The translations under genes were made by a program, and so were the position numbers. Of a stretch of 64,000 bases of DNA, positions 7,816 through 21,861 are shown one piece after another. Each line of letters begins with the position of its first letter. Within the stretch, counting starts at the first letter, position 1. Under the pieces are notes generated by a model that was not told where the DNA came from, did no database searches, and saw only the letters and a list, made by a program, of their open reading frames with translations. The DNA is from Isoetes taiwanensis (taxonomy: Eukaryota > Streptophyta > Lycopodiopsida > Isoetales > Isoetaceae). Location of the stretch: assembly GCA_021234155.1 (NCBI GenBank), contig JAJEKV010000075.1:682001-746000 (forward strand), read 5' to 3'.

Positions 7816-7819
7816 GGTA

Positions 7820-8120
7820 AAAAAAAATTTGACGATTTTTTTGACTATTTTTTTGACGTTTTTTTCTGACGATTTTTTTGACGTTTTTTCTGACGTTTTT
7901 TCTGACGATTTTTTTGACGTTTTTTCTGACGATAATTGTGACGAACCTTGACGATTTCTCTGACGCTTAGTCGTCAGAAAGCTGACGATTTTGTTGACGA
8001 TTTTTCAGACGATTTTTCTGACGCTAAATCGTCAGGTAAAAATCGTCAGATAAATCGTCAGCCAGTAGGGTCCAGGCAGTTGTCTGTTTTGTGAAGACTA
8101 TCTGACGATTTTTCTGACGC
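7820..8120 (-). repeat. CACTA right subterminal repeat array (CTGACG motifs)
   Basis: About 25 CTGACG or TGACG motifs separated by T-runs mirror the left array in inverted orientation. A unique 50-base segment (8060-8100) interrupts the array before the last motifs. This is the counterpart binding-site cluster for the CACTA right end. Confidence 0.9.
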
Positions 8121-8272
8121 AGAACATGCATTCTCTTGTAGTGATACACCGACGGAAAGCTTACTGTCTGAGCTTTCCAACGCACCAAGAAACGTCTCAA
8201 TCCGACACCCGAGGAGAGAGATATGACAGAAAGCGGCGGAGCCTGTTCTCACATGGCCCCAGGACGAGTGCC

Positions 8273-8304
8273 CATTAGGGCGGATTTGGGGTCTGAAAAT
8301 GGCC
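8273..8304 (+). repeat. Left terminal inverted repeat of the 13.5-kb block
   Basis: 32 bases, exact reverse complement of 21726-21757. They start CATTAGGGCGG and end GAAAATGGCC. Homology continues weakly inward for about 40 bases. Confidence 0.85.
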
Positions 8305-8838
8305 CTTATCTTGGGCTAAAGATTTCCACGTCAGATTCGCCAGGACCAATCAGGTTTGCGCCTTTTTTACGAAAGTCAGTATTACTTGGCAGGTAGAAGG
8401 ATGAGCAGGCTTACTTGGCATCCACATGGCGTATTTTCATAGGGGATGCCTGCGCTTTTATTGCAACCATTTTAATGGCCCGTATTTTTCGGGAGTCGCT
8501 TCGCCACCCAAAATAATGGTGACTTTGACCGCCCTCTTGTCGCCGTCACCAACTCCCTTGTCAAATTTTGGCCAAACTTCAGATCATCACACCGGGCTAG
8601 CCTCTCACGTGCATCCGCCTCCGCCTTCACTCCTCATCCGCAATCCATGTCTCCTCCTGTAATTTACGTTCTTGCCCCATTTACGTAACTCCCAAGGTCA
8701 AGAGAAGTGGGAGGTTTTGTCTCAATAGGTTCAGTAGGTGAGTATCTTTGCGCCATCAACGAGGGGCGAGCATAGAGTTAAGCGACAAAAGGCGTCATCG
8801 CGTCGCGGACACATTGGATAGGTAGGATAAAAAGAGTT

Positions 8839-9015
8839 CAAGTTGAATTCTAGCGGTAAAGTGGAAAGTATAACAATACGACATGCATATACCCCTTCCG
8901 ATATGGCCAAAGAGCTAATCTCCACCAAAAACGACTTCCCAAAATTGCCCGCAAATGGTAACCACCTTAAACGGATCACACGACGCCGGCTAGTCATCGC
9001 CTACTTAAGCTGAGA
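8839..9015 (+). pseudogene. Unknown coding relic without start codon, inside 13.5-kb block
   Basis: An open plus frame of about 58 codons reads through SITIRHAYTPSDMAKELIST and a basic tail (KRITRRR), ending at TGA 9013-9015. There is no ATG at its start and a stop lies just upstream, so only a 3' part is preserved. It overlaps the left arm of the first inverted-repeat copy (8973-9038). I recognise no family. The minus-strand ORF over the same bases (8731-8997) is the less likely alternative. Confidence 0.3.
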
Positions 9016-9038
9016 GATAGTTTCGCGTCGTGGTGATC
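8973..9038. repeat. Inverted-repeat module copy 1 (GATCACACGACGC family)
   Basis: Left arm GGATCACACGACGCC (8973-8987); right arm GCGTCGTGGTGATC (9025-9038) with one extra G. Loop about 37 bases. Confidence 0.75.
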
Positions 9039-9263
9039 TCCTTATCTTTTCATTTCTTTTCGTTGACACGCGTGTTTACAAACAAATTTATTGTGCGGGT
9101 TTATGTTTATCGACGTCGTGGATGTCATTCCTACCGAAAGTATTAGTAGTGTACTTGTCGTGGTATCACATAGACATCGGAATTGTCCTTTTCCAAGGTA
9201 TGGATGCCGTGACCTTGCGGTATAGGCATCCGGTTTTACTGACATGATTATAACATAAAGGTC

Positions 9264-9641
9264 GTGAAACCGAGCTTGAGGCGGTTGAATTGCCCCCCTT
9301 TAAGTGAACTTTGTAAGCCACGCACTAATGAGAACAATGTAATTGCAATGAAGAAATGCATGGTCGACGAGGTGCAAGCGGGAATGTCCAGCGGAGGCGT
9401 GAGGATGAGTTTCAAAATCTTCACACCATTTGAGGTATTTGCTAACATATTCCGGATGGCGCAGAAGTTCAAAAGTCCGAAGACATATAATGCTTTCTCC
9501 CCTGCCGATTTTGTGGATGGCTTATTTTTGGTTCCGACTGATGTTCCGATTCCACGAATCATCCGTCAACTAACAGAGGTCCGCGTAGTTAAGTCCTCCT
9601 TTAAGTTCGCCAGATACTTTCTTCCAAAACAATATTTATAA
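9264..9641 (+). CDS. Unknown 125-aa protein inside 13.5-kb block
   Basis: An unbroken plus frame with ATG at 9264 and stop at 9639-9641. The middle is globular in composition: MSFKIFTPFEVFANIFRM, then AFSPADFVDGLFLVPTDVPI. No signal peptide or membrane segment is obvious. A further frame starts a few bases downstream and may belong to the same gene. I do not recognise the family. It is one of the few frames of its length in this block without a break. The minus frame 9248-9562 lies over the same DNA and is judged a shadow, because the plus strand is the coding strand for nearly all genes in this block. Confidence 0.4.
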   Translation: MKPSLRRLNCPPLSELCKPRTNENNVIAMKKCMVDEVQAGMSSGGVRMSFKIFTPFEVFANIFRMAQKFKSPKTYNAFSPADFVDGLFLVPTDVPIPRIIRQLTEVRVVKSSFKFARYFLPKQYL

Positions 9642-9645
9642 TTAA

Positions 9646-9953
9646 TTGTCAACTAGAACGAAGGAAACAAAAAAGAGAGGTCGCACAACTTTTTGGAGCC
9701 GCTTTGAGGACCATAATGCATTAATTCCGTGCGGTGGATATTCGAGTATGGAGAGGGGAGGAAGTCATTTATACGGCCACCATGGAAAGCGAATGGCCAT
9801 TATCGAGCTAAGAGTGCTAATGGAGACAGGGAGATTGGCGGCGACTTCCATTATTTTATTGATGGCATTAGGGTTGGTTACGTGCAAGAGGGAAATGTAA
9901 AGTTTAGTGAGTTCGCGATCAACAAGAAATTGTCTATCGGGCTAGCGCTTTGA
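9646..9953 (+). pseudogene. Unknown basic protein, frameshifted, inside 13.5-kb block
   Basis: Two overlapping plus frames look like one gene with a single frameshift near 9720-9740. The first part is basic (TRTKETKKRGRTTFWSRFED). The second continues RKSFIRPPWKANGHYRAKSA and DFHYFIDGIRVGYVQEGNVK and stops at 9951-9953. It follows the 125-aa frame at once, so the two could be one longer gene. I recognise no family. The 3' sequence (9960-10100) is T-rich. Confidence 0.35.
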
Positions 9954-10124
9954 ATCTCGGTTTTTATTTGTGTTTTTGTCCGATGTTTTTTAGGTTCCGT
10001 ATTTTGTCCGATATTTTTTAGGGTTCCGCATAATTATTTAAAAACGTTACCATCATATTTTACTTTAACTTCGCTTTTTACTATTTATCTCTTTGCCGCT
10101 TGTCTATTTTTGTCGTGTTCATAG

Positions 10125-10131
10125 TATAAAG
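10125..10131 (+). promoter_or_regulatory. TATA-like box upstream of the histone H3-like gene
   Basis: TATAAAG lies 26 bases before the ATG at 10151. This leader is shorter than the 93-152 bases seen for the coiled-coil cassettes, so its assignment is less certain. Confidence 0.35.
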
Positions 10132-10150
10132 CGCCATCCGCCGAGAAGCC

Positions 10151-11011
10151 ATGGCAAGAACTAAGCAAACCGCAAGGATCCATCCAGTGGTGTAAGGCCG
10201 TGATTACATTAGTCCGCCTTCTTCATCCGACTCAAGTCTCGAGAGATTCTCCTCCTCCCACCATGCCTAACGTAAGACCCGAAAAGAAATCCGCATGACG
10301 TGACGGGCGGAGAAGCAGCCCGGAGTAAGTAGGGAGGTGCACCGGCCCGGAGACAGGGATGAAAATGGGGAGAGACCTACGAAAGCAGAATATGACGCCG
10401 ATTAATTATTGGGCAGCCGCTTTTCTTGCTCTTTTTTCCTCGCCTCCTGTTTCTCCCCGTGGAGGTGCTGACCTTCAAATCAAAGGAGGAGGCCCAACGC
10501 CGTAAAGGGAAGGCTACTCAGAATGTGAGGAGACGGCCGGAAGAGTCGGGCCGAGGAACAGCCCGCAAAATGCCGGGTGAGGAGGCGGCGAAGAGTCGGC
10601 CGAGCAACAGCTCCAAATGCCGGGTGGGTGAGGGTAGTGGCCTAAGCGAAGACGGCCCTGGCATTGGGGTGAGCTTCGCGAGATTAAGAAGTATCGAAGA
10701 GCACCGAGATGGTCATTCCGCGTCTCCCATTTGCCGGGCTCGTCGTGAGAGATTCTCGCAAGAGTGTGGTGCGATACATCATACCATTCTGAGAATTCAA
10801 GCAACCGCCTTTAAATGCTCTTCAAATGGCTTCGGGCGGTTGGTGTCGGTCTGTTCGAGGACTCGCGGCTTTGCAACAATACATGCCAAGCGGTGACCAT
10901 CATGCCCAAGGACATGCCCTGCCTCTTACGATAAGGGATCCCGAGTACTATGGTCAAAATTTTATGGCTGAATACAACAAGAAGAAAGACCCCCGGAAAA
11001 AGGCCGTGTGA
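10151..11011 (+). pseudogene. Divergent histone H3-like gene, multiply frameshifted
   Basis: The ATG at 10151 opens MARTKQTAR, the H3 N-terminal tail, and the frame breaks right after it. Downstream, in three alternating frames, are H3 core pieces in the right order: LREIKKY (about 10676-10697), KSTE...LPF..LV (about 10697-10745), LRIQ (about 10790), ALQMAS (about 10816), VGLFED (about 10841), then HAKR and VTIMPKD (about 10880-10912). The distance from tail to core (about 500 bases) exceeds the ordinary 136-aa H3, so the tail region is expanded or carries an insertion. The end departs from normal H3: instead of the usual final helix there is a 25-residue basic tail (EYNKKKDPRKKA) to a stop at 11009-11011. 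H3 packages DNA in nucleosomes. The H3 identity is strong; its origin (host copy, element cargo or viral) is open. Confidence 0.75.
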
Positions 11012-11145
11012 AGTGCCTTTGTGTTTTTTCATATGTATAATATTTCTTAATGTAATGGCTTTATAAGCTTTAATCTCTTAGTCCATTTCTTTCTTAGAAG
11101 CCTAGCTTAGCACTTTGTATTTTTTTTTTTTTTTGTTATACGTGA

Positions 11146-11213
11146 GGATCACACGACGCCAAACAAGCATTGTGCTTTTTGTTGCACATAGTAGTCTTCG
11201 CGTCGTGTGATCC
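11146..11213. repeat. Inverted-repeat module copy 2, best preserved
   Basis: Left arm GGATCACACGACGCC (11146-11160); right arm GCGTCGTGTGATCC (11200-11213), a perfect 14-bp stem with a loop of about 40 bases. It follows a T-run (about 11120-11134) downstream of the H3-like gene and is followed at once by four AACCCT units. Confidence 0.9.
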
Positions 11214-11237
11214 AACCCTAACCCTAACCCTAACCCT
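11214..11237 (+). repeat. Four telomere-type AACCCT units
   Basis: AACCCT repeated four times, abutting the right arm of inverted-repeat copy 2 without a gap. This equals TTAGGG on the other strand, the six-base form, not the seven-base TTTAGGG form commonest in plants. Confidence 0.9.
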
Positions 11238-11238
11238 A

Positions 11239-11899
11239 AAATGTACGGACAAATCTCCCCACAACGGTACCGTGTCCCCTTTCATAATCGACAACGGCTA
11301 CTTGAGTTCAAAAGTGACAAATGCCTTACCGCTCCTAAACATCTTGTTTTCGCCGCTTGTTTCGGGCCATGGATTGTTATGTGAAGTTCCCGAATGGTAT
11401 GCATCCGCCCCTCATGACAACGAGGGAAGTTGCGCCCGGACGCGATTTATCCGGATTCTATTGCAAGGAGTTGGACATCATGGCAAACAATGAGCGAGCT
11501 TGATGCTATCGCGAGGTTGCCTTAGCTTTCACCCGACCGCTTGGTCTCGGTGACGCCCTTTGCGGATGTCCCTCGCTCGTGGATTCCAAAACCAGCTCTA
11601 GAGGAGGCGGCTTCCCATTTGCAAACAGGGGAAGATGTTTTTCAAGAATGCCGCGCGGCTCCTCCCCGGCCGTCCTTGTGCTTAAGAAGGTATCTTATTT
11701 CTCTTTGCCGTTTGCATTTGCTAGTTATTGCATTCTGCTCGGCCAAACCGAAGATACACTGGAAACAATGAAATCTTTAAGCCAAGGGGGGTCAGTTATG
11801 TGTGATGATACTGACTATGACGTAGAAATGGAGATAGATCTACAAGAAGAAGAGCAAGAATGTAGGAGTTTTAGCTTCGACACGACCGGCCTTGGGTGA
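11239..11899 (+). pseudogene. Unknown gene relic, frameshifted, inside 13.5-kb block
   Basis: Several plus frames overlap: one through GTVSPFIIDNGYLSSKV (about 11265-11315), one through FADVPRSWIPKPALEEAASH (about 11556-11615), and one ending in an acidic stretch (MEIDLQEEEQE, about 11828-11860). Coding potential moves between frames about every 100-200 bases, as in a decayed gene. I recognise no family. It begins right after the telomere-type units and ends at the start of the next acidic gene, so the two may be a single longer gene. Confidence 0.35.
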
Positions 11900-12816
11900 A
11901 CCAGAGAGGAGGGAGATGATTCAAGGTGATGAGGATGGGGATGAGGATGAAAAGAAGTTGTCCGACATAACGCCAATTTTAGTGGAAGGCAAAGAATACT
12001 TATTGCTAAGTGATATACTGAGGAACCCGTCTTTGTTACGAATGTGTGCTAGGGAAGACGAGCTTATCAGTACCTTGGCCGAATGGGTAAATTTAGGCCT
12101 AGATTTTGAAGAGGATTTGGACAAAGAGATGTTTGAAGTGTCTAATTATACCGGCAATGCTATAAAGCTTAAAGAAGCCTATGAGAGGTCGGAGTCTCGA
12201 TTTGCTCAAGATGAGGCGAATCTACCAACGGAAGAAGAATTCAAATGCCTCCGGTGCAAAGCCGCCAATCAGGGATCTGAGGTTTTTAGCGTGCCCTTCA
12301 TCAATCACCAAGGCAAAGATAAGCCCGGTAGATGAGGATAAATGTGAAGAAGATAATCTTGAGGGTTCTTATTTGTGGGAAGTAGATGATTTTTCTTGCC
12401 GACATGCACGCTGGGGACAGAAAGATTGAAGGACTCTACATTGTTACGATATATCTCAAGATTCGTTAATGGGGAGATAATCGCCTTCAGAGAACTTTCA
12501 AATCCAAAAGGTGCAGAGTTTGTCTATTACATCCGTGCATTATGCATGTTCGGGAACCATTCCCAATTGGCATCAAACACCGAAAGGGTGATAGCAATTC
12601 GCGGATGTTGTGTTACAATATTTTGACGACCGCTTCCGGTCTCATGCTGAAAGCAATATGTTAAATTTTTAGTCTGGCGGCTTGACTCACCCAAGGTTGG
12701 AAGTCAGGGTCGATAACATGGAAGTCATTGCCTTGTTGGATCGGTCTTGCGGGGGATTGAAAGAGAATGAAATTGACGACGGCTTGAGAAATATGTTTTC
12801 CAACTTGTATCGGTAA
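11892..12816 (+). pseudogene. Unknown acidic protein gene, frameshifted
   Basis: The first frame (ATG 11919, or open from 11892) gives a soluble acidic protein: DEDGDEDEKKLSDITPILVE, then ISTLAEWVNLGLDFEEDLDK. It stops at 12333-12335. Coding sense continues in other frames: GSYLWEVDDFSCRHAR (about 12366-12412), RYISRFVNGEIIAFREL (about 12446-12496), and a last piece VDNMEVIALLDRSCGGL to a stop at 12814-12816. The 3' sequence then has TAATAAAA (about 12851) immediately before inverted-repeat copy 3. Its length after joining would be about 300 residues. No family recognised. The 3' UTR resembles the one at 13740-13785, so genes in this block share UTR modules. Confidence 0.45.
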
Positions 12817-12879
12817 AATTATTTATGTAAAGATTGTCCTTCCGAAATTCCTAATAAAAATTATTTTATTTGTATTTAT

Positions 12880-12943
12880 TCACATCACGCCAAATACATC
12901 ATCCGATTTTCCACGTCATATCTAGGTTTTGGCGTCAGGTGAT
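12880..12943. repeat. Inverted-repeat module copy 3, diverged
   Basis: Left TCACATCACGCCAAA, right TTTGGCGTCAGGTGA (about 12929-12943); 12 of 15 positions pair. It starts about 22 bases after a TAATAAAA poly(A)-like signal. Confidence 0.6.
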
Positions 12944-13000
12944 ATCTATCTCAAGAAAATGAAATATTATTGGAAAAAAGACAATTAATTTATTTATTCC

Positions 13001-13030
13001 TCACACGACGCCAGAAGCAACTTCGTGTGA
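13001..13030. repeat. Inverted-repeat module copy 4, short loop, upstream of a TATA box
   Basis: TCACACGACG (13001-13010) faces CTTCGTGTGA (13021-13030). The TATA box of cassette 1 starts only 8 bases downstream. Confidence 0.7.
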
Positions 13031-13037
13031 CTCATGT

Positions 13038-13046
13038 TATAAATAG
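13038..13046 (+). promoter_or_regulatory. TATA box of coiled-coil cassette 1
   Basis: TATAAATAG followed by AAGACC, 93 bases before the cassette 1 ATG. The same TATAAATAGAAGACC string serves cassette 2. Confidence 0.7.
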
Positions 13047-13130
13047 AAGACCGATGTCCACGCCGACCTCCGACGCCTCCCTATACCTCATCTTCTACTT
13101 CCGACTTCCGCCTTCCACCTTACGGGCCCG

Positions 13131-13512
13131 ATGGCATCATCATCTTCCTCTAGCAAGCTTACCACGCCAAGATAGCACTCCCCGCCCCCGTGAGTCGCCA
13201 GTGGACATCACCCTTGCAAAGGGTGATGAAGAGATTCAAGGAGATCCATGATGAAAACAACCGCCTCGGCCGCCGAGAACAATGAGGCGGTCGACGATTA
13301 GCCTTCACGAGGGAGCCGCCGCACGAAAGACGCTGAGCTCGTGGAAACATTCGCCATGTACCAAGAGGCGACGAGCCGCAGGTCGAGGCGGTTGAAACCG
13401 CCACATGATTTCGCAGCCTTAGAAGATATGGAGAAGAAGATGAGAACGCAGCCTTACGGCCAAATGCTATTGCAGATATGAAAATCAGCTAGAGGATCAT
13501 GAAGATCCCTAG
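13131..13512 (+). pseudogene. MASSS coiled-coil cassette 1, frameshifted
   Basis: The ATG at 13131 gives a Ser-rich start (MASSSSSSK). In shifted frames follow DIT (about 13207), then VMKRFKEIHDENNRL (about 13223-13267), FAMYQEATSRR (about 13352-13382) and ALEDMEKK (about 13418-13441), ending at TAG 13510-13512. Heptad-like Leu and charged residues mark the middle and end as coiled coil. It parallels cassette 2 piece by piece, so the two are tandem paralogues. Single-base gains and losses break the frame at least three times. Function unknown; a small nuclear or dimerising protein is a guess. Flanked by inverted-repeat copies 4 and 5. Confidence 0.55.
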
Positions 13513-13610
13513 CCGCTTGTATCTATCTATTTTTGCTTCAAAGAAAAGTTTTCTCTTTTTTGCTTCTATCTATCCCGTTGTTCCAATGTATGTTCTCGCT
13601 TTATTAAAAT

Positions 13611-13674
13611 ATCACCTATCGCCAAATGCCTTGCTTGCAATTAGGTAGCAATCAATGGATTTCGCCGTGGTGAT
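13611..13674. repeat. Inverted-repeat module copy 5
   Basis: ATCACC...CGCCAAAT (13611-13627) faces ATTTCGCCGTGGTGAT (about 13659-13674). The loop contains TTGCAATTAGGTAGCAATCA, nearly the same loop as copy 7. It abuts a TTATTAAAA signal. Confidence 0.6.
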
Positions 13675-13836
13675 CTCCATGCCGCTCTATTTTGCTTCAA
13701 TGAGAAGTGCTATCTTTAGTTATGTATCAAGAAAAATTACTTATGTATAGATTGTATCACCGAATTATCAATAAAAATTATCACACGAGCTTTCTCTGGA
13801 TGAAAAGACGTTAGAAGAAGTAACGGTCCTTTTTCC

Positions 13837-13899
13837 TCACACGACGGCCGAGAAGTAACGGTCCATTTTCTGACCCACGGCATCCTTCGTGCGGTGTGA
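13837..13899. repeat. Inverted-repeat module copy 6, upstream of a TATA box
   Basis: TCACACGACGG (13837-13847) faces CGTGCGGTGTGA (about 13888-13899). A direct repeat AAGTAACGGTCC lies at about 13818 and 13854. The cassette 2 TATA box is 25 bases downstream. A lone left-arm-like TCACACGAGC follows a CAATAAAAATTA signal just upstream (about 13770-13790). Confidence 0.6.
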
Positions 13900-13923
13900 C
13901 TCAAGCTACTACGAAATCCCTGC

Positions 13924-13932
13924 TATAAATAG
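13924..13932 (+). promoter_or_regulatory. TATA box of coiled-coil cassette 2
   Basis: TATAAATAG followed by AAGACC, 152 bases before the ATG at 14076. Confidence 0.7.
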
Positions 13933-14075
13933 AAGACCTTCTATCTTGCCTTCGACCTCCATCCTCTTCCTTCTTAGCCTTACGCTCATCTTCTCCGCCT
14001 TCCGCCTTCTTCTCTCCGATCCTCTTCCGCTTCGCTCATCTTCTCCCCTTCCTTCGCCTTCCTCCTTCTCCTCCG

Positions 14076-14430
14076 ATGGCATCTTCATCCTCGTCCGAAA
14101 GCGACCCGCGCCCCGAAGCTGCCCGCGGACATCACCCCCTTTTGTGGTGATGAAGAGATTCAAGGAGGTTCCGCAATTTTAAAAGCCGCCTCGTCCGGCC
14201 GAAGATGGAGGCGATGGGATGTTAGAATTCACGAGGGGCTGGCCGATGAGCGACCTTGAGCTCGCAAGAACATTAACCAGTACCGAGAGGCCAATAGCCG
14301 TAGGGTCGAGGCAGTTTTAACTGCACACAATATTTCGCAGGCGCTAGAAGATATGGAGAAGAAGCTTCGAGCTGCGGAGGATGAGAACGCAGCTTTACGG
14401 CTTCAGCTACAGGATCATGAAGATCCGTAG
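14076..14430 (+). pseudogene. MASSS coiled-coil cassette 2, best-preserved member
   Basis: The ATG at 14076 starts MASSSSSESDPRPEAA. After frame changes come DITP (about 14127), VVMKRFKE (about 14139-14163), YREANSRRVEAV (about 14280-14316) and a clear leucine-zipper-like C-terminus, ALEDMEKKLRAAEDENAALR, then LQDHEDP and TAG (14428-14430). Leu and charged residues recur at heptad spacing. Expected intact length is about 118 residues. It shares a TATA box, order of motifs, poly(A)-like signal and 3' inverted repeat with cassette 1. No known family recognised. The whole block is preserved as a tandem paralogue despite at least two frameshifts. Confidence 0.6.
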
Positions 14431-14514
14431 CCATTGTATATATATTTTTTGTTTCAAAGAAAAATTTGCTCTCTTTCTTGCTTCTATCTGTTCTCTTGTT
14501 TTGTTTTATTAAAA

Positions 14515-14581
14515 GATCACACGACGCGAAATGCCATTCTTGCAATTACGTAGCAATCAATGGATTTCGCGTCGTATGATC
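14515..14581. repeat. Inverted-repeat module copy 7, 18-bp stem
   Basis: GATCACACGACGCGAAAT (14515-14532) faces ATTTCGCGTCGTATGATC (14564-14581), one mismatch, loop 31 bases. It directly follows TTATTAAAA at the end of cassette 2. Confidence 0.9.
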
Positions 14582-14822
14582 TCCACAACGTACACCTCGT
14601 TGTATGTATAAATTCCTAATTTATTAATGGAAAAGTATATGTAACACAAATATCTAGCTAGATTATGTGATAACTTGCAGGTAAATGCGAATTTGCATGT
14701 GGATGACAACGTCTATTCACATACGTGGCTTGTGGATGACAACGTCATGCCAAGGACGTGGCATGCGCTGCCACAATAACACTGTCTTTTGTACGGCCTG
14801 CATACAGTACGGCTAGGATATG

Positions 14823-14893
14823 ACGGATCCCATGATGCGAACATAGGCTACCGTTGCCTAATTGCATGCTATAATTTCGCCTCGTAGGATTAT
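14823..14893. repeat. Inverted-repeat module copy 8, eroded
   Basis: GGATCCCATGATGCGAA faces a right arm reading ATTTCGCCTCGTAGGATT (about 14873-14890). Only about 11 positions pair; recognised mainly by its likeness to copy 7 and its place upstream of the next TATA box. Confidence 0.4.
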
Positions 14894-14945
14894 TACACAA
14901 CTTTATCGGTACTCACAACCGTAGATTCCAACGCATTCTAGTTTC

Positions 14946-14954
14946 TATATAAAA
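14946..14954 (+). promoter_or_regulatory. TATA box of coiled-coil cassette 3
   Basis: TATATAAAA, 98 bases before the ATG at 15044. Confidence 0.6.
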
Positions 14955-15043
14955 CGCCGGAGGCCTTTGTCTTCTCCTATCCGCCATCTCTGTTTCTACC
15001 ACATCCGCCCTCAGCCATCTCTCCTTTTCTCCCATCACTTTCA

Positions 15044-15502
15044 ATGGCCTCCAGCTCCGCCCATCCCCGCCGAGATCTTGTCTCAAGTTTTGGTCAAGGA
15101 AATTCGTAACATTACGTCTTGAAGCGGAGGAACGGATCCGCCTTCTAAAAGAAAAAAGAATGATGAAGACGCCGCCAAGCTGGTTCGGCAGAGGAAAAGG
15201 CCGCCTTCTGGGGTGGAGGTGATTTTAGTGCGCCGACAATCAGCGGGCTGCCTTAGACCGCCGTGCGCATTGCGCCCGCGAGATATAACCTCCAAGAGAG
15301 GCTTAGGGCCGCAATCGGGCGGGAGAGGTCGCCCGAGCCCAACTCGATGAGCGGGAAGATAAGGTTGCGGAATATGAGAACGTGGTTGCGGGGCGCAGCC
15401 AATCATGTTGGAGGAGCAGAAAAAAATTATCACCGCCTCGGGAAGAGCTTGCCCGGCGATCATAGGCATCGGGCTCCTCCTAGAGGGGCCCCGTTTTTTT
15501 AA
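15044..15502 (+). pseudogene. MASSS coiled-coil cassette 3, frameshifted
   Basis: The ATG at 15044 starts MASSSAHP. In shifted frames follow AEILSQVLVKEIRNI (about 15068-15114), LRLEAEERIRLLKEKRMMK (about 15115-15170) and AQLDEREDKVAEYENVVAG (about 15338-15394). These are highly charged, helix-rich coiled-coil segments. The same start, promoter spacing and downstream inverted repeat link it to cassettes 1, 2 and 4, though sequence identity is low. The minus-strand frame at 15083-15469 is a shadow. Product and function unknown. Confidence 0.45.
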
Positions 15503-15614
15503 TGTTTGTAATTGGTTTTATTTCTCAATGGGAAAAGTTTTTGACAAATGTGCCGAATATTACGCTTCCTATTTTTAATTTTCAATATCCGTGGTAGAGA
15601 GAATGACAAAGATG

Positions 15615-15679
15615 TATCACACGGCTTAAACCCTTCATAGGGTTTTAAAGCTCGATGCAGATTTCAGCGTGGTGTGATA
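15615..15679. repeat. Inverted-repeat module copy 9
   Basis: TATCACACGGC (15615-15625) faces GCGTGGTGTGATA (15667-15679). The loop contains a second stem (TTAAACCCT / AGGGTTTTAA). Confidence 0.65.
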
Positions 15680-15817
15680 TACAATGTAGTTAGAATAGTT
15701 ATTGATGTGTTCCAAATGACAAGACCATTAATGTGTTCTAGCGACAACCGACAGAATCCGGGCCGACACGCAATACATGAAATGAAAGTGTGTTTAATAT
15801 GTTCAAGCGCTAATATG

Positions 15818-15826
15818 TATAAATTG
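15818..15826 (+). promoter_or_regulatory. TATA box of coiled-coil cassette 4
   Basis: TATAAATTG, 93 bases before the ATG at 15911, the same distance as in cassette 1. Confidence 0.55.
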
Positions 15827-15910
15827 AGGTCCTTGCATTGTGCTCCTTCCGCGGTTCGAAGTCTTTGCTCCTCACTTCTATAATCTTAACGCCCCTCCCA
15901 TTTGTCATCT

Positions 15911-16400
15911 ATGGCCTCCACATCCTCAACCGCACGATAATGGAAAACGCAAGAGGATAGAACTCCTTCCGACATAGTGTTGGGTGTTCTAATGAAGAGG
16001 TTGAAGGAGCAAGATGATCTTCTAAAGGAAAACGCTGTTACAATTCAGCAGAAAGAAGAAGAGAATGAATTCAACCTTCTCATGCTTCGTAGCCAGAGAG
16101 GCAAATCAGCGCTTGAATAGAAGGTCGGATGATGACATGCCCCAACAACCGCAGACCGAGGTGGTTATGACGGCAACGAGGATGCTAATTCAGGCGTAAG
16201 AACACGTTGTGCTATTGGGACAGGAGCGGGACATGTACAAAGAGATGGTGGATGATTGGAGGAACGCTTGGATAGGGTGATTGCTCGCTTGAGGGGAAGA
16301 GATGAAGACGAAGACGAGGGATCAGCTGATGATGATGATGAAGATAATGAAGAAGAGCTCGCATGCGGAGCAACAATGAGTCGTTGTATTTTGTTTTTCA
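15911..16400 (+). pseudogene. MASSS-type coiled-coil cassette 4 with acidic tail, frameshifted
   Basis: The ATG at 15911 starts MASTSSTA, then an early stop. The next frame reads SDIVLGVLMKRLKEQDDLLK (about 15966-16025), matching the DITP...VMKRFKE segment of cassettes 1 and 2, followed by more coiled coil (QQKEEENEFNLLMLRSQR). A later frame gives LDRVIARLRGRDEDEDEG and a run of Asp/Glu. So the order is Ser-rich start, VLMKR-type helix, coiled coil, acidic tail. The 3' limit is uncertain because the acidic frame stays open to 16525. The acidic tail and helix could suit a chromatin- or RNA-binding partner, but that is speculation. Confidence 0.45.
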
Positions 16401-16462
16401 ATGTAACATCTTTCACAACTTTAATCAAAAGTAACCCTTTTTTATTATTATCTTGTAAAGCT

Positions 16463-16527
16463 TCACACGACGCTGGCCACATAAATGCAAGCAATAGCTT
16501 AACTCCAATCGCTTTCGCCATATGATA
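16463..16527. repeat. Inverted-repeat module copy 10, right arm eroded
   Basis: TCACACGACGC (16463-16473) faces a weak arm TTCGCCATATGATA (about 16514-16527). Confidence 0.5.
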
Positions 16528-16534
16528 CAAATAA

Positions 16535-16598
16535 GATCACACGACGCCGGCTACAGTTGTGCAAACAAGGTTGGAGGCAAGTACTTGGGCCGTGTGAA
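16535..16598. repeat. Inverted-repeat module copy 11
   Basis: GATCACACGACGCC (16535-16548) faces GGCCGTGTGAAC (about 16588-16598). It lies back to back with copy 10, eight bases apart. Confidence 0.65.
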
Positions 16599-16790
16599 CA
16601 TGCTACACATTACAAGTATACTTTTACCGATTCTTTGTCTCTTAGATCTCCACCATTGCGATGCTAGTGGGGCCTAGAATTTTGCCAAGCAACTTTTCCG
16701 CTTTTTTCTCTTGACATTATGCCAATGGTGTTTACGACTTGGGTTGCTCCTTAAAGCGACCTTCTTGTCGTGATTTAGCCATCGCCCTTC

Positions 16791-16800
16791 TATAAAACCA
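16791..16800 (+). promoter_or_regulatory. TATA box without a clear gene
   Basis: TATAAAACCA, followed after 68 bases by ATGAAAGGC (16860). The frame after it breaks within about 20 codons, so the gene behind it is lost or overwritten by the minus-strand transposase-like sequence. Confidence 0.4.
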
Positions 16801-17299
16801 CTCTGTCATCTGTCTTAGAGGGTTGGTTCCCACATTTCCACCCCTCTTTGAGTGTTACGATGAAAGGCTATTTTAGCTTGTTTATGCGACTTCTCCATGC
16901 CTTGTGCACTCCACACCGCTAGGCTTCCATACTTCCTAAAACCAAGGTGCATGAGCCCAAAAGATGTGCAAGTAGTGCGTGACTTCACTCTCTCCCCATG
17001 CGCCTATGAAAGCTTTAATAAATTTGTTATTCGCTTGCACCTAACATTTCTCATCTTCTCTTGTGAGGTCCATTCTCAATGTATGGGAACAATTCGCATA
17101 ATGCATCCCATGCTTTTTTTTCCTCAATGCCGAACGAACGCCATCTCAGGCGGTCTGCTCCGCATCAACCAAAGAATTTTCCAAATTCATAGACCTTTTC
17201 TCCCATCCGGTTTCCGCTCGAGCCTCTCTATGATTCTTTATGAAGCGCCGAAGCTTTCACCCTCCAATTGACACCTTTACGAGGCACACTTGTTCTTCC

Positions 17300-18770
17300 C
17301 GCCCGCTTTCTCATCGAGCTCTAATCTTACATTGCCACCATGCAAACCCGCTTCGATAGAACATGTTCAACTCTCACGAATTCCTTCCTCTCTTCTCTTC
17401 TTGTCTGAAATGTTCCACACGAATCTGCAGCTCAAAAATATCATCTTGTCGATGATTCTCACAAAGCCGTGCAAAGTGCAGATATGAACCCTCTCTAATG
17501 GAATGGGGAAAATGCCATGATTGCATGATTGCAGTACAGACAACTTTTGCATGTTCCTTGTCCTCCTCCACTTATGTTGTACATTGCTTTCTCAGTTTTT
17601 AAATCAGACGCCAAGTGAAAAATTACTTTGTAAGATCCATAGTGATCTACTTGCAATTTTTCCCCTCCCTCGAATCTAGATATTAGACTCGGGATGTCAG
17701 TTTGATTGAACACCCATTTCAATACCTCGTGGGTTTCTTTCTGAACTTTAAAGAGACATAACCACCAGGTGTCATCTTCAGATTGACATGAGAACCATTT
17801 TTCCGCACGCTTCTTCTCCTCGTCCGTCACCTCTACATCTTTTTTGTTATTCTTGTTGCTCTTTGATTTAGCATGTGCAATTGCATTCTCAATTGCTCTA
17901 TTCATGATGACAACGGATACCCTCTCATACTTCTCAAACTTGGTCAGTTCCATTTCATCCAATTTTATGCAAACTTCAATCTCACCATTAGTTTCTCGTG
18001 AATCGTTAAGTCATAATATTTGACAAGGAATTGTAAGAGAGTTACTGTGTCAACCCAAAGATTATTATGCTCATTCATTCCAACTATATCACAACAATCC
18101 TTGCTATTCTTATCTTTTATGGCTATGGCGGTGACCAGCACATTCAACGTGGTGCATCTCTCCTAATATGGCATACACCATCTTTGTCCTAGTAACCCTT
18201 GTATTCTCGACAATTTGTGGACGGGAGCTTAATACTTTTTGTGCCCATTCTTTTCAACGCTTCGGGAATGGCTTGAATAGAGAACGGTAACCAAGCCTCT
18301 TGATGCCTACATCATCACAAAATACCAGACATCCGTAAACTTCTAACTTCTTGTAGATCTCCCCTAGTACCATTTCCAATACCATCTTCTTGAGAGGAGA
18401 GTTGTAGGGCTGACAAATCATGTCCACTATCTCCCCGCTCGGCCGCTAGGTTCTTCACTACGAACCAAGATTGCTTCTAGTTTCCCCGCATCTTAACCGC
18501 CTTTTGCTAGTGTTGTAAAAATCGACCTTGTGGCCGTGGACCTCGCGTCTGAATGCACCTGATCCAAACTTCAGTTCCTCTATCGGTCGATAATGCTTCT
18601 TCCTTTCTCGCAAGCCAAGGGGTTTTTCTTCAAATTCTTTAACCTACATTGAAGCCCAAAGTTTGCTCTTTCGAAGCTCTTGGATCTTTTCTTGCAGCTG
18701 CCCTATCACCAATTTGACTTGTCCACTTCAGATCTCAAAGAAGTTTCCCTCCCAAGCCGTCATTCCTTTC
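17300..18770 (-). pseudogene. Decayed transposase-like gene, unknown family
   Basis: Minus-strand coding sense runs across this stretch in several frames. The longest frame (17962-17495) reads EKWFSCQSEDDTWWLCLFKV, then DHYGSYKVIFHLASDLKT, and then GQGTCKSCLYC, a CxxC pair. Upstream (about 18450-18200) another frame gives LEMVLGEIYKKLEVYGCLVF and IKRLGYRSLFKPFPKR. A DLKT..AMY segment followed by a Cys pair resembles domesticated or transposon-like proteins seen in many eukaryotes. I cannot name the superfamily, and no complete DDE triad is visible because of frameshifts. Its orientation is opposite to the other genes of the block, so it may be the mobility gene or a later insertion. Confidence 0.5.
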
Positions 18771-18880
18771 CTTCATCACAAAGGAGTAATGAAGCGAGAG
18801 AAAAAGAGCTGCTTGTTTAAGTTATAATTCTCTTGTGACAATCGGAAGCAGCTCATCTCAAGGAACTCAGATTCGATTCA

Positions 18881-19362
18881 ATGCCTTCATCCTCTCAATC
18901 TCTCACAATATCCCAAGAGGCCGAGTTACCGCCACCACAAAATCGACTAAACTTGAAACGTCCCCGAAATGACGGTTTCTTGCCACTCAACGGATCCAAT
19001 GGATATAAACCGCCATCCGCCCGGATGTCGACACTTTTTTTGAGCACGCAAGGCGCAACATGTCGAGGTCTAAGTTCTTATTTTTAGACCTCCTTTTGCG
19101 ATTGAAGACCTGGAGCATATTCCCGAAGTCGCTTGGATCCTTATCCACACATCATTTGGAGCTTCCATACCGCTGTGGATCGCATGGGCGAAAAATGAAT
19201 GTGTACAATTTGTATGCCCCCAAAGACAATTAAGCCGCTTTGAGGCTCAAATTGGTACTAACCTCGCTTTTGAAATTTGCAACGTGCATATGGAAATCGA
19301 AAAGTCCATTCTCCTACAATCCATGCTTTTATACAAAGCAAATTCAAAATTCGAATTGTAGG
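18881..19362 (+). pseudogene. Unknown gene, frameshifted, its 3' part overlaps the duplicated element end
   Basis: The ATG at 18881 starts MPSSSQSLTISQEAELPPPQ and stops at 19085-19087. A second open frame in another phase (about 19080-19362) reads PPFAIEDLEHIPEVAWILIH, then CNVHMEIEKSILLQSMLLY, to TAG. Together they look like one protein of about 155 residues with a Ser/Pro-rich start. The last 100 bases lie in the segment that is repeated at 21250-21735. No family recognised. Confidence 0.4.
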
Positions 19363-19767
19363 GGGCGAAGCCCAGTATTGGGATGAAGTAAAGATCCCTT
19401 CTTTAACTTTTAAGGCGCAATCGCAAATAAACGAAAAGTCTAATACAAAGCTTCAACCTACACATTCAAATTTTGAAATGTAGAAGGAATGGACTCTAAA
19501 TGAAAATAGGGCAAGACAAGAATCGGTGATGCATGATTGGTATCCGACAAACCAAGAGACACCGCCATGAGTTGCCGGGTATGCTATAATGCAAGTGGCT
19601 TTTTAGAAGCGCCACCACGGTTAAGGCCAATCTGTCTGACAACCAAGAGAATTAAATACATATGGCGCCATAGATATGCGATTCCCTTATTCCGGAGAAT
19701 ATTCCAAGCAAATCTGACGAAAAAAGGGCGGAAATATGACGTGGAATGGCTGATAGGAGGCCATTTT
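19265..19767. repeat. Internal copy of the right end of the 13.5-kb block
   Basis: About 500 bases closely similar to 21250-21735, from CGCTTTTGAAATTTGCAAC to GGCCATTTT. It lacks the terminal CAGACCCC...CCTAATG part and carries several small indels. Confidence 0.85.
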
Positions 19768-19876
19768 AGTTCATAAAACATAATATAACTTGGAATGATA
19801 GATATTTTATATGCAAATGGGAGACTATTGACGAGGGACTTGTGTTTAATTTTAATTTGACAACAAATAAGAAAGT

Positions 19877-19945
19877 GGATCACACGATCACTTAATTTAG
19901 TGTGTTCCATTTTGTTGCATATGTACTATTCGCTTGGTGTGATCC
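19877..19945. repeat. Inverted-repeat module copy 12
   Basis: GGATCACACGA (19877-19887) faces CGCTTGGTGTGATCC (19931-19945). The flanking TTTAATTTGACAACAA segment recurs at about 21126-21145. Confidence 0.65.
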
Positions 19946-20338
19946 TTGAAAAATAATATGCTCTTTGAAAGGGATAATGACTTATGTACTTAAGAGTGGT
20001 AACACATGTACAAAAAAAAAAGTTAGGTATTCAAATGGAATTAGAAGCAAAAACTTTTACATTCAAAATTTTTATGGTCATGGCTTTACATCATTTTGTA
20101 AATTTAAATGCCCTGAGGCTTCAACTATTCACAACAAAAAGCCCGGAGGCTTGCAAATATATGGTAAGAAGTCGGAGGCAAGCTCGACTAAGAACAAGGA
20201 AAAAAAAAAAATAAGAGGTGCTCGCCTAACAAATTTCATTCATCCGCTTCACCATCCGCAAAAAAAAAAAAAAGAAATAACCGTTAGTTGAATGCTTAAG
20301 AAAAGAAAGAAAACATGCATGTACCATGAACTAACGCC

Positions 20339-20650
20339 ATGAGCTCCTCCAAGTCGCCAGATTCGCCTTCAACTTCTTCATCTTCTTCATCATCTTCGCT
20401 TCTTCTCCGGCCTGTGACCACTCATTTTTTTCAAGAATCTCCTATCCAGCCTTCAAGAACACCTGCGGATGAACTCCTGCTCCCGAAATTTCCTCCGATT
20501 CCTCATTCTCTGATTCCTCGCCAAAGGAATCGAGGGAATCGAGGCATTCGTGAGCAAGAACCGCGGGCGCCGGAGGGAATCATGGAGGGAACACCTCTTC
20601 CAGCCGTAATAGGCCTCTTGGAGGACACCTCCGGCTCTTCCGTGAGCTGA
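20339..20650 (+). CDS. Unknown Ser/Pro-rich 103-aa protein near the right end of the 13.5-kb block
   Basis: An unbroken plus frame, ATG 20339 to TGA 20648-20650. It starts MSSSKSPDSPS and has a poly-Ser run, a Pro-rich middle (LLLPKFPPIPHSLIPR) and an Arg-rich segment (RQRNRGNRG). Low complexity makes a chance frame possible, and no domain is visible. The Ser-rich start recalls the MASSS cassettes, but no later motif matches. The overlapping minus frame 20453-20659 is a shadow. Confidence 0.35.
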   Translation: MSSSKSPDSPSTSSSSSSSSLLLRPVTTHFFQESPIQPSRTPADELLLPKFPPIPHSLIPRQRNRGNRGIREQEPRAPEGIMEGTPLPAVIGLLEDTSGSSVS

Positions 20651-20854
20651 TCTCTTCATGGCGATGGACTAGAGAAATTGGGCGGAGGATCTAGCTAAGA
20701 TTGGGCGGAGATTGGGGAGAATGGGCGCAATCTAGGGCTGGAATAGATATAGGCTGGATTAGACGTGAAAATCGTAGGAATGATTCGTATTCCAGTCCTA
20801 TCAACCATCATTACATGCCATTATGTGCATATCTCGAAATTTGAGCCATATCTA

Positions 20855-20958
20855 ATATCTTCCTTTTTTTTAACCTTATACCTAAATATCCAATATCTTC
20901 CTTTTTTTAACCTTATTCCTAAATATCCAATATCTTCCTTTTTAACCTTATTCCTAAA
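20855..20958 (+). repeat. Tandem repeat, about 2.7 copies of a ~40-bp unit
   Basis: The unit contains AATATCTTCCTTTTT and AACCTTATTCCTAAATATCC. Copies differ mainly in the length of the T-run. Confidence 0.8.
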
Positions 20959-21249
20959 CCTATATGATTTGAGTTTAACCTGAAAATGAACACCGATATA
21001 ATTCGAATTTAACATACTATTTAATACCAAGATGCTACGCCACACTATGTCGATAATTGGGATTTAAAAAAAACACTCCAAACCTCCTCGAGAAAAACCA
21101 CGTAAGTGCCGACCTCACTTGTGTTTAAGTTTAATTTGACAACAAGCAACTTCCATATCGGTGTGTAGATCGTGACGGCCAAAATCAAGGTGTGGTATTT
21201 TATGCCCCAACACATTTCGCCCGTGTGAGCCGACGTCCGCATTCAACTT

Positions 21250-21735
21250 CGCTTTTGAAATTTGCAACGCGTATATGGAAATCGAAAAGTCCATTCTCCT
21301 ACAATCCATGCTTTTATACATTAAGCAAATTCAAATTTCGAATTGTAGGGGCGGAAGCCTCATTAGGATGAAGTGAAGATCGGTTAAATAGCAAAGCTAA
21401 ACCTCGAAATGAAAGTCCGATCCGATACAAAAGCTTCAACCTACACATTCAAATTTTGAAATGTAGAAGGCGGGACGCCGCACGCTTACCAAGAGACACC
21501 GCCATGAGTTGCCGTATGCTATAATGCAAGTGGCATTTTAGAAGCGCCACGTGTTGCATCAGTCCGTCTGACAACCAACAGAATTAAATACATATGGCGC
21601 CATGAATGTGCAATCCCCCTTATTCCGGAAGAATATTCCAAGCAAATCTGTAATTATGAGAGTTTGGTATCCTAGGTGGCATGGGAAAAAGGGAGCGGAA
21701 ATATGACGTGGAATGGCTGATAGGAGGCCATTTTC
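21250..21735. repeat. Outer copy of the right end of the 13.5-kb block
   Basis: Direct repeat of 19265-19767; continues into the 32-bp terminal inverted repeat. The two copies are 1.5 kb apart. Confidence 0.85.
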
Positions 21736-21757
21736 AGACCCCAAATCCGCCCTAATG
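21726..21757 (-). repeat. Right terminal inverted repeat of the 13.5-kb block
   Basis: Exact reverse complement of 8273-8304. It starts GGCCATTTTC and ends CCGCCCTAATG. An internal, truncated copy of this end occurs at 19265-19767 and lacks the outermost bases. Confidence 0.85.
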
Positions 21758-21789: not shown

Positions 21790-21861
21790 GGAGGCAACCA
21801 AGTTTGAACTGATGACCTATTGGACTGCAGCCAATTGCTCTACCACTGAGTTCTGCAAAAC
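21790..21861 (-). tRNA. tRNA-Cys(GCA)-like relic
   Basis: On the minus strand there is a D-arm (CTCAGTGGTAGAGCA), an anticodon arm ATTGG-CTGCAGT-CCAAT with anticodon GCA, and a T-loop TTCAAAC with weak pairing. The 3' acceptor strand TGCCTCC has no matching 5' partner. It is therefore a decayed tRNA gene or the head of a tRNA-derived SINE. Confidence 0.55.

Follow-up and report, generated by a model that had tools for sequence, protein, structure and literature searches.

The window analysed here is a 64,000-nucleotide stretch of the genome of the lycophyte Isoetes taiwanensis (GenBank assembly GCA_021234155.1, contig JAJEKV010000075.1, positions 682,001 to 746,000), in which positions 8273-21757 most likely represent a single decayed member of a 13.5-kb DNA transposon family present in many copies. 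The block lies between inverted repeats and holds 8 or 9 conserved coding-like stretches, including a histone H3-like gene on the plus strand and, on the minus strand, a broken transposase gene (about 16611-19038) that a first-pass annotation of the sequence had overlooked. That annotation had counted about a dozen genes; the file of conserved coding-like stretches is there, in smaller number. The element is internally repetitive, with paralogous gene cassettes and a stretch of about 0.5 kb duplicated near the right end, and the cassettes and intergenic hairpin described earlier are both present. The features of the window copy are as follows.

8273-21757, no strand: whole element, decayed copy, recognized by its ends, genome copies and empty sites
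8273-8304, plus: left terminal inverted repeat, 5'-CATTAGGGCGG..., an exact arm backed by genome end counts
21726-21757, minus: right terminal inverted repeat, an exact arm backed by genome end counts
9297-9653, plus: stretch B, kept across copies, coding status unsure
10151-11006, plus: histone H3-like gene, begins MARTKQTARIHP, then decayed in the window copy
11366-11648, plus: stretch C0, kept across copies, coding status unsure
11819-12332, plus: gene D, acidic protein, no family assigned
13226-13459, plus: gene E, first copy, charged and coiled-coil-like by eye
14269-14427, plus: gene E, second copy, a remnant
14514-14582, no strand: intergenic hairpin with 30-nt arms, 80% complementary
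15078-15450, plus: gene F, charged and coiled-coil-like by eye
15936-16363, plus: gene G, charged and coiled-coil-like by eye
about 16611-19038, minus: transposase gene, broken in the window copy, CMCT-like in intact relatives
19260-19767, no strand: inner copy of the repeated right-hand stretch (about 0.5 kb)
20314-20643, minus: gene I, acidic protein, no family assigned
21245-21734, no strand: outer copy of the repeated right-hand stretch (about 0.5 kb)

The 32-bp inverted repeats are confirmed as the genuine ends of a mobile element. The two arms are 100% complementary, as had been claimed, enclose 13,421 bp and give termini of the form 5'-CATTAGGG..CCCTAATG-3'. We searched the window's own genome (1,658,258,908 bases in 1110 contigs), the only eukaryotic genome covered, and all counts from these searches are lower bounds. 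A 30-base end pattern, with up to 3 mismatches allowed, occurs at 866 forward and 876 reverse places, 1742 genome-wide, and its reversed control at none on either strand. Among 100 exact end places listed, 20 facing pairs (plus then minus, less than 40 kb apart) were found and no pairs in any other orientation; their spacing is 13.0-14.0 kb in 15, 5.4 kb in one and 15.5-29.8 kb in four. The search for other full copies that the first-pass annotation had proposed, carried out in this genome, recovered the same termini about 13.5 kb apart repeatedly, and among the 20 pairs seen the ends are not, as had been allowed for, those of short miniature inverted-repeat transposable elements only. Two further copies could be aligned with the window element end to end, piecewise, at about 90% identity, interrupted by later insertions, and a third partially; flanking DNA differs among the three copies compared.

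Unlike most such elements, this one inserts without duplicating its target. At the junctions of 18 full copies (the window copy, two genome copies and 15 of the 20 facing pairs), the bases common to both flanks number 0 in 11 copies, 1 in five and 2 in two, which is the chance level, and no fixed base adjoins the ends. When shifts of up to 5 bases are allowed, a 5-bp match appears in two of the 18 copies, at differing offsets. Furthermore, a genome search with the joined flanks of five insertions returned empty sites for four, including the window's own. The aligned empty sites have no gap within 20 columns of the join, with 0 bp gained or lost, so that the element adds only itself. For example, the window insertion has its empty site on C1060 (314/318 identical, 98.7%), the C952 copy on C1055 (312/326), the C22 copy on both C701 (396/400) and C917 (381/397), and the C1026 copy at four paralogous places (366-368 of 395-399 identical). 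A hidden TA duplication (CAT-TA/GGG..CCC/TA-ATG, slashes marking the joins) was considered and ruled out, as CATTAATG is absent from the empty sites at the join. The fifth junction, within an apparent host H3 gene, reads in frame across the join by eye, as does that of a copy within a gypsy reverse transcriptase. At L021/L022 (G000:C35, left flank of the copy at 85420), a copy sits within an apparent host histone H3 gene, near its end.

For the transposase, a piece of the best-kept copy served as query, and 130 of 3039 genome candidates were scored. Among these, 32 are places of a sister family at 51-57% identity, 29 of them without a stop and with frames of up to 931 residues. One sister copy, L047 (G000:C941:4812800-4817200), has an intact 858-residue frame with 53% identity to the window element's transposase; no convincing inverted ends were detected around it. 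In an alignment of six sister proteins, A1, residues D394, D499, C520, C523, H568, H735 and H740 are invariant and E760 is present in five, with V in the sixth (L081). This is the D-D-E triad with C(2)C and H(4)H motifs between the second D and the E that marks the CMCT kind, and these motifs recur in the window element's own family, where E replaces the second D in one copy. The counterparts in mouse RAG1 (PDB 9jpu) are D708, C727, C730, H795, H937, H942 and E962. A profile comparison of A1 with RAG1 residues 657-1010 in hhalign aligned the H-H-E block over 46 columns at 37% identity (E 2e-4); it scored 40.5, whereas none of 41 controls (40 shuffled versions plus the reversed sequence) exceeded 30.1. 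The motifs and this one pairwise profile test support a DDE enzyme of the CMCT kind (CACTA, Mirage, Chapaev, Transib, RAG1), with RAG1 as the nearest tested relative among those compared. A PHROGs search gave a single transposase match at E 0.04 and none for the histone. At another locus, L068/L069 (G000:C907:31528501-31544500), a derivative shortened by deletion has an open 544-residue transposase piece, near which lie frames of 532 and 684 residues that look by eye like a reverse-transcriptase element.

The gene that the first-pass annotation had called histone-like is, by its sequence, a histone H3. Its intact copies (L085, L086 and L088) encode 291 residues and start ARTKQTAR; an intact copy matches the Pfam Histone family at E 5.2e-31, and the best 60 of 173 PDB matches are all H3 chains (top E 7.5e-31). 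Ordinary H3 has about 47 residues ahead of ALREI in the fold. The element protein resembles canonical H3 in its fold, which is nearest to H3, and in its N-terminus, and differs in having I for K9 and H for S10, a long tail (178 residues ahead of ALREI), a loop 1 longer by 4 residues and a C-terminal extension. In L085, ARKS is absent and a single ARK is present, followed by G. The start ARTKQT(A/T)RIHP is retained in all seven copies in which this region is covered, A7 being replaced by T in one. We scored the best 150 of 6925 candidate histone places, some of which may be host H3, and many are open over 200-330 residues. No description of a histone-encoding transposon was found in narrow phrase searches of the open-access literature, which leave its absence unproven.

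Transposase, histone H3 and gene D are linked in a fixed order, as measured on the full listed sets of 130 transposase and 150 histone places. A listed histone lies within 20 kb of 35 of the 130 transposases, on the expected side and strand in 34; gene D accompanies 65 of the 150 histones and lies downstream on the same strand in 64, at a spacing of 0.96-1.57 kb in 59 of these; and 42 of the 130 transposases have gene D, 39 in the expected arrangement.

Gene D is open over 300-500 residues in many other copies. Neither it nor genes E (both copies), F, G and I gave anything above Pfam cut-offs. Directly left of the element, window positions 7817-8147 hold a tandem array of 12-bp units of the TTTTTTTGACGA type, and in the right flank positions 21817-21856, read on the minus strand, look by eye like a tRNA gene's 5' part. 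Neither the window nor the 30 flank and end loci scanned with ARAGORN yielded a tRNA gene, although by eye two right flanks resemble tRNA fragments. Two copies carry large later insertions. That in the C1026 copy measures 10.4 kb and includes a 519-residue open frame (L012:284-1840, minus strand; Pfam DUF7869, E 2.3e-40). Because the two edges of this insertion share 5 bp of element sequence, it is probably a second mobile element, one that makes a 5-bp target duplication. A similar 12.4-kb insertion with a 7-bp overlap is found in the C952 copy.

We consider it likely that the block is a cargo-carrying, CMCT-like DNA transposon with a zero-bp target duplication, its own H3 and a RAG1-like DDE enzyme. 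A giant cargo-carrying transposon had been one of two options raised in the first-pass annotation, and it is borne out by many copies of the same length with the same ends, a DDE-type transposase and precise empty sites. The transposase would free the element at its CA/TG ends and would join both ends to target bonds directly opposite each other; such placement would leave no gap to copy and hence no duplication. With less assurance, element-made H3 may be placed on element or target chromatin and may reduce silencing there; a kept K4 motif together with a lost lysine at K9 would suit an element that profits from active chromatin. RAG2 reads K4-methylated H3, and H3-guided targeting may therefore be an alternative role. 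More tentatively still, and with rather less than even confidence, the element may represent a new land-plant lineage of RAG1-like transposons that combines opposed-bond joining without duplication with its own K4-kept, K9-less H3, used to resist K9 silencing or to guide the transposase to chromatin.

Several known systems share parts of this design. According to Kojima 2025 (PMC12730594), the CMCT clade includes EnSpm/CACTA, Mirage, Chapaev, Transib, Plavaka, ESTA, Lanisha and RAG1 and is marked by D-D-E, C(2)C and H(3-4)H motifs, 5'-CA..TG-3' ends and 2-5 bp target duplications. The window element has 5'-CA..TG-3' ends and the motif order D, D, C(2)C, H(4)H, E, whereas it differs from the clade in its zero-bp duplication, in its H3 gene and in having no detectable sequence match to curated families. 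The spacing within the catalytic motifs is close to that of mouse RAG1: C-C, H-H and H-E are 3, 5 and 20 residues apart in both, and the distance from the second D to the E is 261 in the sister transposases and 254 in RAG1. Transib and RAG make 5-bp target duplications and have CAC-A/T heptamer ends, whereas the window element, with CATTAGGG ends, duplicates nothing. Lanisha, compared here by description only, likewise lives in a seed-free plant and has CMCT motifs. PMC12730594 describes it as a moss superfamily similar to EnSpm. Absence of a target-site duplication is shared with Spy, of the PHIS superfamily, which according to PMC4482050 inserts within AAATTT and has a transposase of the PIF/Harbinger kind; AAA/TTT is found at 0 of 18 junctions of the window element's family.

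A number of observations weigh against the CMCT-like, H3-using transposon. The 2-5 bp target duplication typical of the clade is absent from the 18 copies and the four empty-site insertions, and for the fifth junction no empty site was found among the matches listed. The RAG1 match has an hhalign probability of only 46.7% over its 46 columns, and Pfam and PDB sequence searches with the transposase gave weak, unconvincing matches only. Given the motifs and the RAG1 profile match on one side and these weak matches on the other, we label the enzyme CMCT-like and do not assign it to a named superfamily. None of the 32 sister transposase places lies within 20 kb of a listed histone (best 150 histone places), and neither a histone nor gene D is detectable in the 22.4 kb surrounding the sister L047, so the H3 looks like a possession of the window element's family. 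In seven copies chosen for open frames, the pooled ratio of nonsynonymous to synonymous polymorphism (pN/pS) is 0.78 in the histone tail, and a codon-position test on old copies gave a weak histone signal (p 0.0495) and none at 0.05 for the other genes. One rival reading has the histone as a captured passenger without use to the element and leaves everything else in the interpretation intact. In its favour, host genes are frequently acquired by large plant transposons, no histone is seen in the single sister copy examined, and many copies are decayed. We regard this as rather unlikely: many copies retain long open frames of 270-330 residues, the modified H3 start is present in seven of seven copies covering it, and pN/pS in the fold is 0.40 in the same open-frame set.

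Two further explanations concern the element as a whole. A true but divergent CACTA/EnSpm element, its 3-bp duplications lost or blurred by age, would account for the CA..TG ends (one copy even has a CACTA end), the transposase motifs, the large size and the repeated right-hand stretches; yet no 3-bp duplication, nor the 5-bp one of Transib/RAG, is present in the 18 copies or the four empty-site insertions, and the empty sites join at 0 bp. The window's empty site is 98.7% identical, which argues that age is not the cause of the lacking duplication, and seven Pfam scans that admitted matches to E 1 did not list Transposase_21 (PF02992), making this origin improbable. Still less probable, to the point of being very hard to entertain, is a relic, with terminal repeats, of a Maverick-like element or of an integrated large DNA virus. 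The viral origin was the other option raised in the first-pass annotation, on account of features such as the histone, the tight gene spacing and the paralogous cassettes. It finds no backing in the hallmark genes: no gene for a capsid, DNA polymerase B or a packaging ATPase came up in Pfam searches of nine translated stretches, which were not exhaustive and included no fully intact copy, and scanning IMG/VR with a sister transposase gave four pattern matches with no relative among them. The fixed ends shared by many copies, together with seamless insertion sites, speak against it as well.

The CMCT-like transposon brings together an unusual combination, namely a DDE transposon of the CACTA/RAG1 kind, duplication-free on its empty sites, that carries its own full-length H3 in many copies. 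Should this H3 be used, the element would be a test case for how a genomic parasite might withstand K9-based silencing. A RAG1-like enzyme, if that is what it is, would bear on how widely the RAG1 mechanism extends in plants and on what determines the stagger of the target cut.

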